Source: Lachnospiraceae bacterium | GTDB taxonomy: Bacteria; Bacillota; Clostridia; Lachnospirales; Lachnospiraceae | DNA length: 64,000 nucleotides | Assembly (NCBI GenBank): GCA_017405805.1 | Contig: JAFQZU010000008.1 | Span: forward strand, 1 to 64,000 | Direction: 5' to 3' | Shown here: positions 6,714 through 28,964 of the stretch, piece by piece | How positions within the stretch are numbered: the stretch's first letter is position 1 | How the letters are laid out: each line of letters opens with the position of its first letter | Translations under genes and position numbers: made by a program | Notes under the pieces: model-generated | Databases searched by the model: none | What the model saw: only the letters and a program-made list of their open reading frames with translations | Told to the model about the DNA's origin: nothing

Positions 6714-7166
6714 TCACTCCACGCCGAGCATATGGCGGACCTTTCCCATGACGATCGTCGCCTCCTGGACCGTCCGCACGGCTGCCATAACGGTGTCGTC
6801 CCCCGCGATGCAGCCGACGATCTCTGGCATCTGCAGGGCGTCCAGCGCGGCCGCCGCCGCCATAGCCATGCCCGATACCGTTTTGAGCACCAGAAGATTC
6901 TGTGCCTGGTCTATGCTGATATAGCTGTCTCTGAGAACCCGGATATATTTCCCGGAAGCGTCCTGCGAGCGGATCATGGCATATTTCTGGCCGCCCGACG
7001 GCGTCTGCACCTTGGTGAGTCCCAGCGCCCGGATATCCCTGGATACGGTGGCCTGCGTGACGTCGTACCCGCTCTTTTTGAGCTCGGCCGCCAGTTCCTC
7101 CTGTGTGACGATCTCATTTTTCTCGATCAGTTCCAGTATTTTTTCGTGTCTGTTTCTTTTCATCAT
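6714..7166 (-). CDS. argR: Arginine repressor ArgR/AhrC
   Basis: Hexameric repressor/activator of arginine metabolism. The N-terminal winged helix contains IVTQEELAAELKKSGYDVTQATVSRDIRALGL. The C-terminal arginine-binding oligomerisation domain contains VGCIAGDDTVM, where the GDD motif contacts arginine. About 150 residues, the normal size. Start uncertain: ATG ATG at 7166/7163 was preferred over TTG at 7175; none has a strong ribosome binding site. It lies 24 bases after nadK in the long operon. No arginine genes are nearby, as usual for this locus. Confidence 0.93.
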   Translation of the reverse strand: MMKRNRHEKILELIEKNEIVTQEELAAELKKSGYDVTQATVSRDIRALGLTKVQTPSGGQKYAMIRSQDASGKYIRVLRDSYISIDQAQNLLVLKTVSGMAMAAAAALDALQMPEIVGCIAGDDTVMAAVRTVQEATIVMGKVRHMLGVE

Positions 7167-13975: not shown

Positions 13976-16081
13976 TTACTTGCGTCCCTTCTTCTGCTTC
14001 GCAGCGTCCTTGATGGAGAAGGAAAGTCTGCCCATGCGGTCTTTTCCAAGGCACACGACCGTGACCTTGTCGCCCAGCGTCAGCACGTCCTCGACATGCT
14101 CGATGCGGCGGTTTGCGATCTTGGAAATGTGGACCATGCCTTCCTTGCCGGGTGCGAACTCGACAAAAGCACCGAACTCCTTGATGCTCACGACGACGCC
14201 GTCCAGGATCTGGCCTTCCTCGAAGTCCGTGGTGATGATCTGGATCATGCGCTTAGCGTCCTCCATGCCCTTGGCGTCATTGCCGCAGATGGATACGCTG
14301 CCGTCGTCCTCGATGTCGATCTGCACGCCGGTGCGCTTGATGATCTCGTTGATGGTCTTGCCTCTCTGGCCGACCACGTCACCGATCTTCTCGGGATCGA
14401 TCTGCAGGAAGTCGATCTTGGGAGCGTACTGGTTGACGCTCTTTCTGGGCTCGGCGATCGCCTCGCTCATGACGCCGTTCATGATGAACTCTCTCGCCTC
14501 TTTGCACTGTGCGATGGCGCCTTCCACGATCGCCCTGGTCAGGCCGTGGATCTTGATATCCATCTGGATGGCGGTGATGCCGTCATGCGTGCCGGTCACC
14601 TTGAAGTCCATATCGCCGAAGAAGTCCTCAAGGCCCTGGATATCGGTCAGCAGTACGAAATCGTCGTCCGTATCGCCGGTCACAAGACCGCAGCTGATAC
14701 CTGCCACCTGCTTCTTGAGCGGAACGCCTGCAGCCATCAGAGCCATGCAGGATGCGCAGGTGGAAGCCATGGAGGTGGAGCCGTTGGATTCAAAAGTCTC
14801 CGATACGGCACGGATCGCATAAGGGAACTCCTCGATGGAGGGAAGCACGGGCTTGAGCGCGCGCTCTGCCAAGGCGCCGTGGCCGATCTCACGTCTGCCG
14901 GGACCTCTGGAGACCCTGGTCTCGCCTACGGAGTAGGACGGGAAATTGTAGTGATGTACATAGCGCTTCTCGGTGACGTTGGGATCAAGTCCCTCGACTC
15001 TCTGGGCCTCGGAAAGAGGAGCCAGCGTGACGACGTCACAGATCTGTGTCTGGCCGCGGGTGAACATGGCACTGCCGTGCACGCGCGGAATGATATCGAC
15101 CTCTGCCGCCAGAGGGCGGATCTGGTTCAGGGCGCGGCCGTCGGGACGCTTGTGATCCTTGAGGATCATCTTGCGGACGGTCTTCTTCTGATACTGGTAA
15201 ACAGCCTCGTCAAGGATGGAGAGCCACTCTTCCTTATCGGCAAAAGCCTCCTTCAGCTTCTCCGTCACCTTGGCGACGTTGCCCTCGCGGGTCTGCTTGT
15301 CATCCGTGAAAACAGCCTCTTCCATCTCTTCCTGCGGAACGACTTCCTTGATGGCCGCAAAAAGCTCTTCCGGAATCGCGCAGCTCACGTACTCCCTCTT
15401 GGGCTTGCCGCACTCCGCAGCGATCTGGTTAGTCCACTCGATGACCTTCTTGTTGATGGCATCCGCCTCATAGATGTAACGGATCATATCCGCCTCGGGA
15501 ACCTCGTTGGCGCCCGCCTCGATCATGATGACCTTCTCCGCGGTGGAGGCGACGGTCAGGCGAAGGTCGCCGTTGTCCCACTGCTCCTGGCTGGGGTTCA
15601 CGATCATCTCTCCGTCCACAAGACCGATCTGGGTCGCTGCCGCAGGACCGTAAAACGGGATATCGGAAATGGTAGTGGCCAAAGAAGCGCCGATCATGGC
15701 GACCAGCTCGGGTCTGCACTGGGGATCCACGCTCATGACCATGCATTCCAGGGTCACGTCATTGCGCATATCCTTGGGGAAAAGGGGACGCATGGGTCTG
15801 TCGATCACGCGGCTGGTCAGCACAGCGTTCTCGCTGGGTCTGCCCTCTCTCTTATTGAAACCGCCGGGGATCTTGCCCACAGCATAGAACTTCTCGCTGT
15901 ACTCGACGCTCAGCGGGAAGAAATCAATGCCGTCCCTGGGAGATGCGGAAGCTGTCGCCGTGCACAGAAGGGTCGTGTCGCCGTAGTGCATGAAAGCGCA
16001 CCCGCCTGCCTGTTTGCCGACTCTGCCGATGTCTACGCTGAGTGTCCGTCCTCCTACTTCCAAAGAATAGGTTTTGTACAT
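13976..16081 (-). CDS. pnp: Polyribonucleotide nucleotidyltransferase (PNPase)
   Basis: Phosphorolytic 3'-5' exoribonuclease. Two RNase PH-like domains flank a helical domain; then KH (VGQRGKTINEIIKRTGVQIDIEDDGSVSI) and S1 (GQILDGVVVSIKEFGAFVEFAPGKEGMVHIS) domains. 701 residues from ATG 16081, which has AAGGAG 10 bases upstream; the frame is open to 16177 but the extension overlaps a hairpin and is low-complexity. It follows rpsO as in most bacteria. Confidence 0.97.
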   Translation of the reverse strand: MYKTYSLEVGGRTLSVDIGRVGKQAGGCAFMHYGDTTLLCTATASASPRDGIDFFPLSVEYSEKFYAVGKIPGGFNKREGRPSENAVLTSRVIDRPMRPLFPKDMRNDVTLECMVMSVDPQCRPELVAMIGASLATTISDIPFYGPAAATQIGLVDGEMIVNPSQEQWDNGDLRLTVASTAEKVIMIEAGANEVPEADMIRYIYEADAINKKVIEWTNQIAAECGKPKREYVSCAIPEELFAAIKEVVPQEEMEEAVFTDDKQTREGNVAKVTEKLKEAFADKEEWLSILDEAVYQYQKKTVRKMILKDHKRPDGRALNQIRPLAAEVDIIPRVHGSAMFTRGQTQICDVVTLAPLSEAQRVEGLDPNVTEKRYVHHYNFPSYSVGETRVSRGPGRREIGHGALAERALKPVLPSIEEFPYAIRAVSETFESNGSTSMASTCASCMALMAAGVPLKKQVAGISCGLVTGDTDDDFVLLTDIQGLEDFFGDMDFKVTGTHDGITAIQMDIKIHGLTRAIVEGAIAQCKEAREFIMNGVMSEAIAEPRKSVNQYAPKIDFLQIDPEKIGDVVGQRGKTINEIIKRTGVQIDIEDDGSVSICGNDAKGMEDAKRMIQIITTDFEEGQILDGVVVSIKEFGAFVEFAPGKEGMVHISKIANRRIEHVEDVLTLGDKVTVVCLGKDRMGRLSFSIKDAAKQKKGRK

Positions 16082-16147
16082 TTTGTCTTCTTCTCCTTTT
16101 TGCTTCTCTTCTTCTTCGTCTTCTTTACTTCTTTTATCATACATTAA

Positions 16148-16186
16148 GAGACGGCAGCTGCCCGTGATCCCGGTCACTGCCGTCTC
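16148..16186 (-). promoter_or_regulatory. Hairpin in the rpsO-pnp intergenic region
   Basis: A perfect 10-bp stem GAGACGGCAG/CTGCCGTCTC (16148-16157 and 16177-16186) separates rpsO from pnp, without a following T run. In E. coli a stem at this place is cut by RNase III and mediates PNPase autoregulation; the same function here is inference from position. Confidence 0.6.
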
Positions 16187-16202
16187 CCTATGTTTTTAGT
16201 GA

Positions 16203-16469
16203 TTATTTCCTGATTCCAAGTCTCTTGATCAGGCTTCTGTACTCCTCGATATCCTTCTCCTTGAGATAGTCAAGAAGGCCTCTGCGCTTACCGACCATCT
16301 TCTGAAGGCCTCTGCCGGAGTGGTGATCCTTGGGGTTCTTCTTGATGTGCTCAGTGAGTTCCTTGATCCTTGCGGTCAGGATGGCGATCTGAACTTCCGG
16401 TGAGCCGGTGTCGCCCTCAAATCTTGCATACTCGTTGATGACTGCTGTCTTTTTCTCTTTGCTGATCAT
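16203..16469 (-). CDS. rpsO: 30S ribosomal protein S15
   Basis: 88 residues, the exact family length, with the S15 signature [17 protein letters not shown] and the conserved [22 protein letters not shown] that binds the 16S rRNA three-way junction. Start is ATG 16469 with AAGGAG 7 bases upstream, not the TTG at 16487. It has its own promoter about 90 bases upstream and a GC-rich leader. Confidence 0.98.
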
Positions 16470-16559
16470 TGCTTTCTCCTTACTCAAATGATCCGCCGGA
16501 CACCGGGCCCCCGCTGGAGCGGCGTAAAGCTAAGTGCCGGTAACTGCGTAACATGTAGC

Positions 16560-16588
16560 ATCATACCACAGTTGCGGCGGGTTGTAAA
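16560..16588 (-). promoter_or_regulatory. Promoter for rpsO-pnp with structured leader
   Basis: TTTACA (16583-16588) and TATGAT (16560-16565), 17-bp spacer, with a TG one base upstream of the -10. The roughly 85-base leader contains CCGCT/AGCGG and other GC-rich pairs. An S15 autoregulatory leader is possible but not shown. Confidence 0.7.
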
Positions 16589-16636
16589 GAAGCAAAAGAT
16601 TGGAGGTTTTAACAGTCCGTTTCCAACAACAGCAAA

Positions 16637-16891
16637 CTAATCATCACCCATAGGACAGCTGTCTAAGCAATCAGGATACATAATATCATAATTACCGCAA
16701 GTTACACACCCTTCAGGTTCTGAAGAATCCTTCGTCCACTTATCTCCCATATGGTCGATTGCATTCGCTACTTTTGACATATCACTACTACTAAGAGATT
16801 CATACTTAGTTTGAAATTCGTCATCATCCATAGTCCATATTCTTTCTATTAACTCCCTTACAAGACCCGGATTATTCTTTCTTCTTCCCAT
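16637..16891 (-). CDS. Small Cys-containing hypothetical protein
   Basis: 84 residues, not recognised. Basic N-terminus (GRRKNNPGLVRELIERIW), an acidic helical middle, and a C-terminus with four Cys in CVTCGNYDIMYPDCLDSC, which could bind a metal. ATG 16891 is chosen because AAGGAGG lies 9 bases upstream; the TTG at 16897 falls inside that spacing. It is the second gene after the Mor-like regulator, 24 bases downstream, so the two are probably co-expressed. It is clearly more AT-rich than its neighbours, which suggests acquisition. Confidence 0.7.
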   Translation of the reverse strand: MGRRKNNPGLVRELIERIWTMDDDEFQTKYESLSSSDMSKVANAIDHMGDKWTKDSSEPEGCVTCGNYDIMYPDCLDSCPMGDD

Positions 16892-16915
16892 ATACAATGC
16901 CCTCCTTTCACTGTT

Positions 16916-17290
16916 TTAAATAAGATCATTATTTTTCTTATCTCGAACTTCATGGATAATCTGTCTAACTCTTCTTTCAGAAAGTCCAAATTTTCTCGCC
17001 ATCTCTGCCGGTTTCAAAATTCCCTCGTTTTCCTCAACGTATCTCCTCACATACTCCTTGGAATAGAGCTGCCTCGGGAAGGAAATGGTCAATCCCGAAT
17101 AACGGTTCCAGATCTTCAGGGCCGCCGCATTTCCAAGAAGATCCGCCATCTCCCTGTAGATCTCGTTATACTGCGTGAAATCATTTCCCATCTCCGCCCC
17201 ATCTCCTTCCGACCTCAATTCTACTGGAAGCCGAAAGAAATTATCATTTGACGGCTTCTGTGTCTTTTTCACAGGAAATTTGCCATGCAT
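16916..17290 (-). CDS. Mor-like helix-turn-helix protein
   Basis: 124 residues. Residues 40-60 (EIYREMADLLGNAAALKIWNRYSGLTISFP) and the C-terminal KPAEMARKFGLSERRVRQIIHEV follow the layout of the Mor transcription activator family of phage Mu: an alpha/beta dimerisation part with a 'LG..AALKIW...GG..I..P' line and a C-terminal HTH. This is my alignment by eye, not a search. Start ATG 17290 has AAGGAGG 6 bases upstream; the frame is open to 17440 but that stretch runs into the repeat array. An internal ATG gives a 91-residue form. The repeat array lies directly upstream, where an operator would be expected. Confidence 0.72.
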   Translation of the reverse strand: MHGKFPVKKTQKPSNDNFFRLPVELRSEGDGAEMGNDFTQYNEIYREMADLLGNAAALKIWNRYSGLTISFPRQLYSKEYVRRYVEENEGILKPAEMARKFGLSERRVRQIIHEVRDKKNNDLI

Positions 17291-17381
17291 ATTGCCTCCT
17301 TTCACGGCAAGCTGTTTTCTGCTCCGTAAAAGGAGGTGTAAAAAATGCGGAAATCTTCCTTTGGCCTTTTCTTTTTCATGT

Positions 17382-17909
17382 GTGGTCATAGGGTGTCTTG
17401 TGGCGGGCACCTTGACCATGAAGCCTATTGCTGTGACCACGGCAAGTCTTCTTATCTTTATGTGGTCACAAGGCGTCTCTTTGTGGGCACTTTGACCATG
17501 TAACCTATTCCTATGACCACAACTAACTCAATTATCTTTGCGTGGTCACATAACGTCTTTTCGTGGGCACCTTGACCACGTAACCTGCTTCTGTGACCAC
17601 AAGTTTTCACGTGGTCATAAAACGTCTCTTCGCGGGCACCTTGACCACAAAGCCTATTCCTATGACCACAACTAACTCAATTGTCTTTGCGTGGTCACAT
17701 AACGCCTTTTCGTGGGCACCTTGACCACAAAGTCAGCTGCTATGACCACGGCAAATCTTCTTATCTTCACGTGGTCACAAATCGTCTCTCCGCGGGCACC
17801 TTGACCACAAAGTCAGCTTCTGTGACCACAACTAGATATCAAGACTTCACGTGGTCACAAATCGTCTCTCCGCGGGCACCTTGACCACGAAATCCTCTTC
17901 CGTGACCAC
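17382..17909. repeat. Seven-unit tandem array of GTGGTCA/TGACCAC elements
   Basis: Units begin at GTGGTCA 17382, 17462, 17542, 17611, 17691, 17771 and 17851: spacings 80, 80, 69, 80, 80, 80. Each unit is a core of about 58 bp (GTGGTCA, a GCGGGCACC box, TTGACCAC, then a final TGACCAC) plus a 10-22 bp linker. Linkers fall into recurring types (ggcaa..tcttcttatctt and aactaactcaatt.tcttt), not unique spacers. Neighbouring heptamers are inverted, so many can pair as 7-9 bp stems (GTGGTCACA with TGTGACCAC). With the tail repeats I count 22 exact heptamers. No gene is visible in it. Confidence 0.93.
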
Positions 17910-17913
17910 GACA

Positions 17914-17985
17914 ATGACCACAGCAATCGCCACAACTATGACCACAGCAATCGCCACAACTATGACCACAGCAATCGCCACAACT
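17914..17985. repeat. Three perfect copies of a 24-bp repeat
   Basis: The unit ATGACCACAGCAATCGCCAC plus AACT is repeated three times without change (starts 17914, 17938, 17962) and then degenerates at 17986. Each copy keeps the TGACCAC heptamer of the larger array, so it looks like a short-period expansion of the same motif. Confidence 0.93.
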
Positions 17986-18017
17986 CCGACCACACCAAAG
18001 ACCCCCAATAAAAACAA

Positions 18018-18044
18018 CAAAAAAAGCGGGCATCCCTGCCCGCT
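18018..18044 (-). terminator. Rho-independent terminator of the rimP-ribF operon
   Basis: AGCGGGCA/TGCCCGCT stem (18025-18032, 18037-18044), 4-base loop, followed on the minus strand by seven T. It lies 36 bases after the ribF stop and separates that operon from the repeat array and Mor-like gene. Confidence 0.9.
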
Positions 18045-18080
18045 CAAAAACAAAATCACATATTCTTAATAATCAATCCC

Positions 18081-19052
18081 TCACGCCCTCTTCATCGAAA
18101 GCATGATATCCTCCGTGATCAGCCGCAGCGCCGCCCAGAAGTCATATTTTCTTCCGGCTTCAATGTCTGCCTGCATGGTGGCCTTCAGCTCTTCCACAGA
18201 GCCGAACCGTCTCTCCTTTCTTCGGAAGGAGCACAGGTAGACCTGCGCGTTCTCGCCATATATATCGCCGCTGAAGTCGTAGAGGAAGGTCTCTACGGTC
18301 ACGACGTTTTTGTCGTTGACAGTGGGCTTGACGCCGATATTGGTCATGCCCTTGTGGAACTTTCCGTCCACCTCCACGAGGGAATAGTATACGCCGTAGG
18401 GGGGAAGGAGTTTGCTGGGATCCGGTACGATATTGATGGTGGGAATGCCGATCCTTCTGCCCAGCGCCTTGCCGTGTACGATACTGCCGTACACGCTGAA
18501 AGGAATGCCCAGACATCTCGCCGCCTCTTCCATCTTGCCCTCCGCGATGTGCTTGCGGATCAGCGTGGAACTGATCGGGACGCCGTCCTTCTCCAGCTTG
18601 CGGATGCAGTTGGTCTCGAAGCCGTACTCTTTTCCCATGGCCTGGAGAAGGGCAAAATCGCCTTTCCCCCTGTCGCCGTAGGAGAGGTCGGGACCGGCCG
18701 CTATATAGCGGACCTGCAGCATGTTCACAAGATAATTACTGATGAAATCCTCCGGCGGCGTCGCGGCCGTCGTCCTGTTGAAGGGAAATTCGACGAGGAT
18801 ATCCACGCCGAGCTGCTCGAACCGGCGCTGCTTTTCCTGCTCTGTCAGGAGTCTTCCGTCCTTCATGCCCCCGAAGAAGATCTCCGGCGGGGGATCGAAG
18901 GTAAACACTACGCTTTTGAGCCCCTTGTCCTTGTGGCGGACGATGTCGTTGATCAGAAGCTGGTGGCCCCTGTGAAGTCCGTCAAATTTTCCTATGGAGA
19001 GGGCTGTCGGCCCCCCGCTTTTAAATTGTGTTGTTCCGCTGATTATCTGCAT
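18081..19052 (-). CDS. ribF: Bifunctional riboflavin kinase/FAD synthetase
   Basis: Makes FMN and FAD from riboflavin. N-terminal nucleotidyltransferase domain with GKFDGLHRGHQ (HxGH-type) and FDPPPEIFF, and C-terminal flavokinase domain with HGKALGRRIGIPTINI and GVYYSLVEVDGKFHKGMTNIGVKPT. 323 residues, normal. Last gene of the operon, just after truB (5-base gap) and followed by a strong terminator. Confidence 0.96.
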   Translation of the reverse strand: MQIISGTTQFKSGGPTALSIGKFDGLHRGHQLLINDIVRHKDKGLKSVVFTFDPPPEIFFGGMKDGRLLTEQEKQRRFEQLGVDILVEFPFNRTTAATPPEDFISNYLVNMLQVRYIAAGPDLSYGDRGKGDFALLQAMGKEYGFETNCIRKLEKDGVPISSTLIRKHIAEGKMEEAARCLGIPFSVYGSIVHGKALGRRIGIPTINIVPDPSKLLPPYGVYYSLVEVDGKFHKGMTNIGVKPTVNDKNVVTVETFLYDFSGDIYGENAQVYLCSFRRKERRFGSVEELKATMQADIEAGRKYDFWAALRLITEDIMLSMKRA

Positions 19053-19057
19053 ATCCG

Positions 19058-20005
19058 TTATTCCGCATGAAACATTTTATAATTTCTGAAGACCGCGTTC
19101 TTACGGTCATATCGGTACAGCGCTTCGAACCGCCCGCCGCTTCCGTACATTCTTGCGAGCTGTCCGCCCCGCATTCTGTCGGGCACGCACTGAGCGCCGT
19201 CATCCACCGGTTCTGTCATGGATGACGCGACCGGATTGCCGTTTAAGAGGAGCTTCATCCCCTCTTCCTTTACCCGGAAGCCCGGATACTCCGCAAAAAA
19301 ACCGTCCACCGGCATGATCATCCGCTCCAGCAGCGCCAGCTCCGTCTTCATCATCCTCTCCGCGTCATCCAGAAGGACCGCCTGGTCCAGGGTGAAGATC
19401 CCGACGCGGGTCCTGACCAGATGCTCCATGGCGGCTCCGGTTCCGAGCGCCTCTCCCATATCGTGGCAGAGCGTGCGGATATAGGTGCCTTTCCCGCACC
19501 GCACGCGCATGGTGACCAGCGGAAGCTGCACGCTCTCGATCGAAAGCTCATAGATTGTTACGGGGCGCGCCGCCCGCTCCACTGTGCCGCCCTTTCTGGC
19601 GATTTCGTAGAGTCTTTTGCCGCCCACCTTCACCGCGGAGTACATGGGCGGGATCTGCATGATCTCCCCGGTAAACTTCTCCGCTGCCTGAAGAAGGCGC
19701 TTTTCGTCCACGAGGCGGAGCACCTCTTCCTCCGGGATACTCTGCAGGACCGTTCCGCTCATGTCCTGGGTGTCCGTCGTGACGCCCAGACGCATGACGG
19801 CCCGGTACTCCTTGTCCCGGTCGGCAATGAGGTCGCACAGCTTGGTCGCCGTACCCAAACATACAGGAAGCACTCCCTCCGCATCCGGATCAAGTGTTCC
19901 TGTATGACCGATTTTTTTCATATGAAGTATACCGCGGAGCCTGGCGACCACGTCGCTGGATGTATACCCTGCCTCCTTGCGGATCGTCAGCATTCCATGA
20001 TACAT
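19058..20005 (-). CDS. truB: tRNA pseudouridine(55) synthase TruB
   Basis: Converts U55 in the T loop of tRNAs. Catalytic Asp lies in the family motif GHTGTLDPDAEGVLPVCLG; the YSAVKVGGKRLYEIARKG and RCGKGTYIRTLCHDMGE motifs are intact. ATG at 20005 (MYHGMLTIRKEAG) matches the conserved start of the family; the longer frame to 20044 would add 13 unrelated residues overlapping the nrnA gap. About 315 residues including the C-terminal PUA-like part. Confidence 0.95.
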   Translation of the reverse strand: MYHGMLTIRKEAGYTSSDVVARLRGILHMKKIGHTGTLDPDAEGVLPVCLGTATKLCDLIADRDKEYRAVMRLGVTTDTQDMSGTVLQSIPEEEVLRLVDEKRLLQAAEKFTGEIMQIPPMYSAVKVGGKRLYEIARKGGTVERAARPVTIYELSIESVQLPLVTMRVRCGKGTYIRTLCHDMGEALGTGAAMEHLVRTRVGIFTLDQAVLLDDAERMMKTELALLERMIMPVDGFFAEYPGFRVKEEGMKLLLNGNPVASSMTEPVDDGAQCVPDRMRGGQLARMYGSGGRFEALYRYDRKNAVFRNYKMFHAE

Positions 20006-28040: not shown

Positions 28041-28964
28041 CTATCGCAGCCCTCTTTCTTCCGCAACCTCGATCAACAGCTGCCTGTTCGCATTCTCATA
28101 CTCATTGAACGCATCGCTCCCCATCTTGTCGAAGTCCTCCGGCTCGATGGTCCCGTTGTACCAGCTCTTGCTCTCGAAATAGTCCCTGAACTCCGCCATG
28201 GCAAACTTTCTGCCCCGGCGCGCATAGATCTCGTTGATGGCGAGAATGAGGTCATGATCGCTCAGAGATTCCGCTTCGCTCCTGGACAGGTAGCGGGAAT
28301 TGCTGTCGGAGATGATGTAGTCGCCGTTTCCGAGGGAAGCTGCCGTTTTCTTACGCTCCTCCTCTTCCTTCTGCTTCTTTTCTTCCTCTTCCGCTTTCTT
28401 CCGGGCGGCCTCTTCCTCCTGTTTCTTCTTCTCTTCCTCTTCCGCCTGCTTTCGGGCGGCCTCTTCCTCTTCCTGTCTCTGCCTTTCTTCCTCTTCCGCC
28501 TGTTTTCGGGCAGCTTCCTCCTGCGCGGCGGCCTGCGCCTCCTGCGCGGAAGCGTCATTTCCGGGATCCTGCGCGGTGTCCTGCTGGTTCTGCTGGTCCT
28601 GCTGTGCAGTCACGACCTGCCCGCCCTCGGAGGAACTGTTGAAGAGAGATTTGCTGCGCAGGAAGATCACGACAAAGATCACGGCGCTGATCGCGACAAG
28701 GACGCCGAGAAGGATGGTGACGGCGCCGCCGCCCCCGTGATTCTCATAATCGTCGTCATCGTCCCCGGGGACATAGTCATAGCGGTGGGAATCGGGCACA
28801 TCGTCCTGGGTGACCCGGTAGTAGGCGTCCGTGTCCTTTCCCTGCTGTGCTCCGCTCTCGCCGTCGTCGGTCCTTGCGACACCAATGATGTGGGCCCCGC
28901 ACGAAGGGCAGTATTTTCCGCCCCGCATCAGCTCTGCGCCGCATTTGCTGCAATAATACTTCAT
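28041..28964 (-). CDS. Zinc-ribbon membrane protein with C-terminal YARHG domain
   Basis: 308 residues. Order: zinc ribbon YYCSKCGAELMRGGKYCPSCGAH (residues 3-25), acidic linker, one transmembrane helix (GGAVTILLGVLVAISAVIFVVIFL, about 81-104), Gln/Asp linker, a highly charged Glu/Lys/Arg coiled region (about 140-215), then the extracytoplasmic YARHG domain (INEIYARRGRKFAMAEFRDYFESKSWY). ATG 28964 is preceded by GGAGGGAGCT, so it is chosen over 28976. It lies 20 bases after polC and is probably the last gene of that operon. Role unknown; YARHG domains occur in surface-exposed proteins. Confidence 0.85.
   Translation of the reverse strand: MKYYCSKCGAELMRGGKYCPSCGAHIIGVARTDDGESGAQQGKDTDAYYRVTQDDVPDSHRYDYVPGDDDDDYENHGGGGAVTILLGVLVAISAVIFVVIFLRSKSLFNSSSEGGQVVTAQQDQQNQQDTAQDPGNDASAQEAQAAAQEEAARKQAEEEERQRQEEEEAARKQAEEEEKKKQEEEAARKKAEEEEKKQKEEEERKKTAASLGNGDYIISDSNSRYLSRSEAESLSDHDLILAINEIYARRGRKFAMAEFRDYFESKSWYNGTIEPEDFDKMGSDAFNEYENANRQLLIEVAEERGLR

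Follow-up and report, generated by a model that had tools for sequence, protein, structure and literature searches.

What is a regularly spaced array of short inverted words doing between ribF and rpsO in a Lachnospiraceae genome? The array lies in the first 64,000 nt of one contig – this whole stretch is referred to here as the window – of a 2.05 Mb assembly (G000) in 40 contigs that is 84% complete. An initial annotation had described it as 22 copies of the heptamer GTGGTCA or its complement TGACCAC in seven units spaced 80-80-69-80-80-80 bp, followed by three 24-bp tail copies, and had proposed a dedicated protein-binding or structured locus. Both counts and spacing were reproduced: 22 of the 24 exact matches to GTGGTCA on both strands of the window fall within 17382-17969, the units start at 17382, 17462, 17542, 17611, 17691, 17771 and 17851, and TGACCAC stands in the tail at 17915, 17939 and 17963. 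None of 100 dinucleotide shuffles of the whole window reached 24 matches (mean 5.69, maximum 13), in agreement with the statement that the array is not random noise. TRF recovered the 80-bp period without word input at 17405-17909 (6.4 copies), and also the 24-bp tail repeat (3.9 copies). With unit starts, TRF and the word scan taken together, the seven-unit tandem array occupies 17382..17909 (plus strand), and a word-rich tail at its D end, consisting of 24-bp repeats with a 12-bp sub-period, occupies 17910..18003 (plus strand). TRF reports a separate 54-bp tandem repeat of 3.1 copies at 28356-28522 of the window.

Each unit comprises a 59-bp core and a linker, and the core carries four words – A (offset 0, forward), B (21, forward), C (31, reverse) and D (52, reverse) – that complete an imperfect palindrome; gaps between cores are 21 bp, and 10 bp after the third unit. 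The heptamers had been counted correctly in the initial annotation but the number of words had not, as there are four positions in every unit including offset 21, where word B reads GCGGGCA or GTGGGCA in all seven units and was therefore missed. Linkers recur within arrays, and the arrangement of near-identical repeats and unique spacers typical of a CRISPR array is not seen, so that this candidate was rejected, as it had been at the outset.

The location between ribF and rpsO is right, although the interval is shared with two other reading frames. The D end abuts a hairpin resembling an intrinsic terminator (18024..18045, minus strand), from a pattern scan that is statistically weak (2 found vs 3.2 expected in shuffles); it follows ribF, encoding FAD synthetase / riboflavin kinase (18081..19052, minus strand), the 3′ end of which faces the array. 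A sub-threshold L20_leader match over this terminator region (18012-18098, minus strand; 25.2 bits, gathering score 58.7, E 0.078) is likely to be due to chance. Beside the A end is a Mor-like HTH gene (16916..17290, minus strand; Pfam Mor, E 1.1e-7), the start of which was placed by choice at the ATG at 17290 in a frame readable further upstream. Between this gene and rpsO the ORF list has an 86-codon, cysteine-containing frame (16637-16897, minus strand) whose Pfam matches are weak and to Fer4 alone (E 0.024 and 0.13), with no tblastn match at the Mor and ribF loci of relatives. A 52-codon frame read directly from the sequence (17345..17503, plus strand) runs into units 1 and 2; its start adjoins that of the oppositely directed Mor-like gene, with little space left for a promoter, and AAAGGAGGTG (17329-17338), which is strongly Shine-Dalgarno-like, precedes its ATG by 6 nt. 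It is probably not a functional part of the locus.

The ribF–rpsO gap here is 1,593 nt, and holds the array, the Mor-like gene and the 86-codon frame, whereas in 20 of the 26 relatives in which both genes were seen the match ends of ribF and rpsO are separated by no more than 199 nt, and in the other six by 362-1,414 nt; this comparison drew on the loci of 29 among 57 relatives that gave a ribF match. DNA has thus been gained here or lost elsewhere; with ribF identities of no more than 60%, these relatives are too remote to provide a clean empty site. Upstream of ribF in one relative (G010; L099 2546-2745) there is a 26/52-bp tandem repeat with a period unrelated to that of the array.

The initial annotation had named dispersal of the core over many unrelated loci as grounds against a dedicated binding array. 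Such dispersal is what this genome shows, with nine to eleven arrays, counted by place, beside unrelated genes. A DNA search of G000 found the window itself and 13 further matches with 66-85% identity (14 in all), and a sequence-only model from a 38-row alignment of units or partial units yielded 107 matches at an E-value of 1 or less when 150 of the 851 first-look candidates were scored; as both strands of palindromic units are counted, these are not 107 units. The arrays are that of the window (C23), C26m (C26:30247-30997), C17m (C17:22216-22785), C18 (C18:1046-1428), and those that run into contig ends, namely C26s (C26:15-323), C17e (C17:95752 to the end), C10 (C10:1-284), C19 (C19:110497 to the end), C22 (C22:1-300), C33 (C33:1-376) and C4 (C4:1-58). 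Seven contig ends (of C4, C10, C17, C19, C22, C26 and C33) lie inside arrays, so that true unit numbers are underestimated, and the family probably breaks the assembly at some contig ends. C19 and C22, which have linkers 0.84 identical and the same orientation, are probably a single array cut by assembly, and C33 may belong with C4 or the C17 end; hence the range of nine to eleven. There may be further arrays in G000 beyond those listed. Two other candidates were rejected: a lone pattern match lacking units (C16:67132-67199), and weak model matches on C11 (E 0.14-0.20) in apparent coding sequence.

The arrays are extragenic by ORF listing, with words in alternating orientation and regular spacing, and they sit between convergent genes and also upstream of genes. 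Their neighbours include ribF; a HIGH-type nucleotidyltransferase and an ADP-ribosylglycohydrolase; adenosine deaminase and starch synthase; lexA; TatD and tRNA-Lys; an HTH_3 protein; ketol-acid reductoisomerase; and a choline-binding glucosaminidase. The D end faces the 3′ end of its neighbour in seven of ten readable cases – ribF, an rsfS-like gene, ketol-acid reductoisomerase, tRNA-Lys, ADP-ribosylglycohydrolase, a 552-codon ORF with no Pfam match and an ApbE-like gene – and a 5′ end in three (C10, C17m and C4); the rsfS-like, ApbE-like and C4 neighbours are what we take these genes to be by our own reading, outside any family search. Orientation at the A end is mixed, and placement relative to genes has no proven bias. 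Closely spaced runs of TGACCAC or TGCCCAC follow the D end in the window (17910-18003) and at C26:317-400, C22:260-390 and C18:1425-1455; these word-dense tails differ from array to array, and C26m has none. Beyond the D end of C26m there is a near-perfect long inverted repeat (C26:31020-31100; L025 about 7021-7101) that is perhaps a strong terminator.

Outside this genome the family has a very narrow detected distribution, with one other member genome. A strict exact pattern applied to GTDB contigs of at least 3 kb (84,980 genomes, a scan that may leave out records from the window's own genome) matched one contig, from the Lachnospiraceae MAG RGIG8364 of water buffalo rumen (G078). This genome has three arrays, with two units on C216, three on C184 and two on C234, in which the core is again 59 bp and the spacing is 81 bp. 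Two of the three contain variant words (TTGGTCA and others) and would be missed by the strict pattern, so that the negative results leave room for variant-word families elsewhere. The contig with the C216 array also carries 423-bp tandem repeats (2.7-3.6 copies) in a long ORF (L041 2344-3847). In partly overlapping sets of genomes, no array was found in 40 other relatives by DNA search, in 61 further members of the genus with the exact pattern, or in 249 further members of the family when the unit model was applied under stricter filters, 18 candidates per genome being scored among those listed. Phages and plasmids gave no match; viral contigs gave none with the strict pattern, and with a relaxed pattern four contigs matched at one place each, none of them an array by sequence. 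No third array-bearing genome was found among those searched, in searches some of which were strict or confined to the best candidates.

Words and linkers have diverged very unequally. Counts were made on 12 arrays with 51 units that share the 59-bp core by selection, and on 53 units with the third G078 array added; two interior C26m units with 60-bp cores were left out, as were degenerate end units (C17m 22233 and 22302, C17e 95761 and C22 236), partial units at contig ends, and C4. Between array consensus sequences, identity is 0.897 in words and 0.467 in linkers, with words higher in 66 of 66 pairs, and between genomes it is 0.877 and 0.381 (20 pairs), the word values being inflated in that units were partly found via words (by a fixed template and, for the G078a array, by an exact word pattern). 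Within arrays, the 336 word columns have undergone at least 25 changes and the 372 linker columns at least 123. The window array, the tiling of which was found without using words, and the BLAST matches are less biased; taken by itself, the window array shows no variation in 26 of its 28 word columns and in 10 of its 31 linker columns (p = 1.2e-6). The words are copies of one 7-bp word, GYGGTCA, with core letters GG.CA, and each of these core letters, in all four words, is present in 50-53 of the 53 units. Word A has T as its fifth letter in 52 of 53 units, and word B most commonly has G (33 of 53 units; 33 of 51 in the smaller set), so that the four sites are not equal. Words are no less variable than linkers in three of the 12 arrays (C10, C22 and G078b), and in C19 (p = 0.55) and C17e (p = 0.068) invariant columns are not significantly enriched in the words; C10 and C19 look like recent expansions. 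The initial annotation had held that heptamers differing freely between strains would argue against a dedicated binding array; between arrays the words do not differ freely, so the protein-binding part of the idea survives, while a dedicated local array is not supported.

The geometry of the words is similarly suggestive. At 10.5 bp per turn the offsets 0, 21, 31 and 52 correspond arithmetically to 0, 2.0, 2.95 and 4.95 turns, close enough to whole turns to place all four words, oriented >> <<, roughly on one helix face. Among 39 intervals between units there are 31 of 80 bp, three of 81, and one each of 79, 69, 91, 158 and 161, the last two being double steps. Large spacing changes are of exactly 11 bp (69 in the window, 69 and 69 in C17m, 91 and 91 in C17e) and are located between D and the next A, albeit in three arrays and few independent events; C26m has indels of 1-3 bp (spacings 79, 77 and 81), so that phase is not absolute. 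Taken together, phase and word conservation favour recognition of double-stranded DNA by a protein, as judged from sequence. The perfect central palindrome, TGGTCANNNTGACCA, occurs at six places in G000, all inside arrays, and at eight in G078, six of them in arrays and two inside coding sequence that is presumably plsY. Palindrome searches of both genomes revealed no solitary intergenic sites of the kind found in a normal regulon, and a palindrome confined to arrays or coding sequence makes a classical regulator with solitary operators unlikely. No binding protein for the word was found in the analysis of G000 and G078.

Could the words be read as RNA or as protein instead? As inverted repeats, neighbouring words might pair into transcript hairpins, forming a small-RNA array or a 3′-end stabiliser, and the initial annotation had pointed to stems between neighbouring heptamers. 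Single units do fold somewhat better than shuffles (z of -1.4 to -2.7 for five strands in G000, and -6.5 for one G078 unit with perfect words), and RNAalifold predicts an A-C helix together with an inner helix of three pairs, of which one is changed on both sides in 10 of 38 units, with a covariation term of just -0.31 kcal/mol. Clear covariation support is nevertheless lacking: in the A-D and B-C helices the paired fraction of cells is 86.4%, vs 86.2% in shuffles (reached by 190 of 500), with a covariation score of 0.076 vs 0.067 (reached by 38 of 500); the A-C helix pairs below the shuffled mean (482 of 500 shuffles reach its value), values for a B-to-linker helix are below the shuffled means, and one pair of the inner B-C stem is disrupted in 28 of 38 units and a second pair in 16 of 38. 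At the Rfam gathering score there is no match in 15500-20000, the two matches at E up to 5 both falling far below it. On balance it is the words and not the pairs that are kept, and a structured RNA is improbable. Coding repeats, relic or active, specifying a histidine-rich GH...GHxDH...DH peptide are hardly plausible at all, even though the four words share one frame within the core and the 52-codon frame at 17345, which has a strong ribosome-binding site, runs on into the array such that the words of the first unit read as GH/DH. Linker-touching codons in this frame include three stops in 663, all in one array (11.6 in shuffles; P about 0.05), within arrays word changes rise with codon position, as expected of coding sequence (1/96 first, 11/120 second and 13/120 third), and the 81-bp spacing of G078 would keep the frame. 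Yet two of the other frames contain hardly more stops (5 and 6 in 663), third codon positions in linkers show fewer changes (0.242 per array-column) than first (0.356) or second (0.392) positions, and no in-frame start codon is seen before the C216 array of G078. For G000 coding was rejected, as 80 is not a multiple of 3 and each unit therefore shifts the frame, 6-11 stops interrupt every frame of the window array, and four of ten word third positions are invariant (offsets 31, 34, 52 and 55, each 51/51).

The remaining alternatives accept the words as DNA and differ in what they are for. An array at which the adjacent Mor-like protein acts, as on an operator or an origin-like element, is appealing in that the gene adjoins the array and the Mor family binds DNA; however, G000 has a single Mor match and nine to eleven arrays, G078 has three arrays and no Mor match (its completeness was not given), and seven of 30 relatives in which DNA search detected no array have Mor matches at E <= 0.001, six of them over the family cut-off. 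A link to the Mor-like gene is accordingly not supported; its protein is unlikely to be the binder, and the operator or origin-like reading as a whole is highly improbable. A plasmid or phage iteron origin was rejected, there being nine to eleven arrays in G000 rather than one and none in phages or plasmids. Dispersal itself, together with inverted words of a kind that in general resemble transposase end sites, could instead point to a non-autonomous mobile element, MITE-like or a cluster of integration sites, spread by a transposase or recombinase that acts at the words, and the long ribF–rpsO interval noted above would suit an insertion. We consider this rather unlikely: PF01797 (Y1, RAYT-type) has no match in the 84%-complete G000, with the control positive in five of 14 genomes, array edges vary between arrays, as do linkers and unit number, and there is no match in phages or plasmids. 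Selfish or neutral repeats of the BOX/MIRU kind, with words alike through common origin and exchange and with neither host function nor dedicated binder, are a genuine possibility, though well short of probable. The arrays are dispersed and intergenic and were detected in just two genomes, some are close relatives by linker identity (C19/C22 0.84, C10/C17e 0.77, and C26m/C18 and C33/C10 0.71), and C19 and C10 are expansions with near-identical units. Against this, words differ about five-fold less than linkers, at 10% vs 53% between arrays and 12% vs 62% between genomes, both comparisons being subject to word-selection bias. Since words and linkers share one history within the same 59-bp stretch yet diverge unequally, constraint or directed homogenisation is needed.

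The explanation that we prefer, and to which we give about an even chance on the strength of sequence comparison, is that these are BOX/BIME-like dispersed intergenic tandem arrays, selected as double-stranded DNA and probably bound by one protein. This protein would recognise the word, occupy the four sites of the core cooperatively and coat the array. Arrays would grow and shrink by unequal exchange of whole units, with binding keeping words and phase in place meanwhile. A bound array could act at the level of the chromosome, in nucleoid organisation, topology or anchoring, or alternatively as a 3′-end or insulator element as suggested for BIMEs; either role is likelier than that of an operator for neighbouring genes, because the neighbours are unrelated, the arrays sit between convergent genes as well as ahead of genes, and the palindrome in G000 is restricted to arrays. 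A more specific proposal, which we regard as doubtful, is that the arrays are docking platforms of a new nucleoid-organising or anchoring system, in which tetramers on one face of the 0/21/31/52 core would coat phased arrays so as to connect distant loci or insulate transcription units; co-evolution of word and protein would then have taken place in a few related bacteria, with variants such as TTGGTCA in the second genome. The clean split into constrained words and free linkers makes the array a ready bait for a DNA-binding protein, and if the binder organises the chromosome, the arrays would represent a novel type of nucleoid element, in a group with at least one rumen Lachnospiraceae among its members.

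How do these arrays compare with known systems? MIRU and other intergenic VNTR loci of mycobacteria are intergenic tandem repeats at tens of loci, and by description the arrays resemble them in position and in unit size; we know of no internal inverted word set in MIRU/VNTR loci. Plasmid iterons and multi-site operator arrays are built from phased repeated protein-binding words, as the arrays of this family are predicted to be, although this family is dispersed on the chromosome rather than placed at one origin or promoter. Among the matches listed from open-licence PMC papers, as titles and starts of abstracts, there is no account of this family. The likeness to pneumococcal BOX elements (boxA-boxB(n)-boxC) is that of a dispersed Firmicute element with a variable number of tandem internal units, the large ones containing open frames in one account (PMC3049150). 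By that description the arrays are set apart by the 80-bp unit and four-word geometry, and no shared terminal module of the boxA/boxC type is seen, D-end tails being present in the window, C22, C26s and C18; the same account presents BOX as a predicted folded RNA (PMC3049150), whereas pairing is not clearly maintained in the word arrays. With REP and BIME sequences, for which binding of IHF, gyrase and DNA polymerase I is among the properties reported (PMC2817692), the arrays share an extragenic position and regularly spaced inverted words in alternating orientation. REP hairpins have at their foot a GTAG or, in some families, GTGG tetranucleotide, according to the same source (PMC2817692); the array words mostly begin with GTGG, which lies inside the inverted word rather than outside a stem, and some words begin with CTGG, TTGG or ATGG. 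Membership of REP/BIME was rejected, as no Y1/RAYT transposase was detected in the 84%-complete G000 and no hairpin is kept above shuffles; there are nine to eleven arrays compared with usually more than 100 copies for REP/BIME, and a strict 80-bp tandem period. We class the arrays as a new family within the dispersed intergenic tandem repeats, a class already recognised in bacteria.
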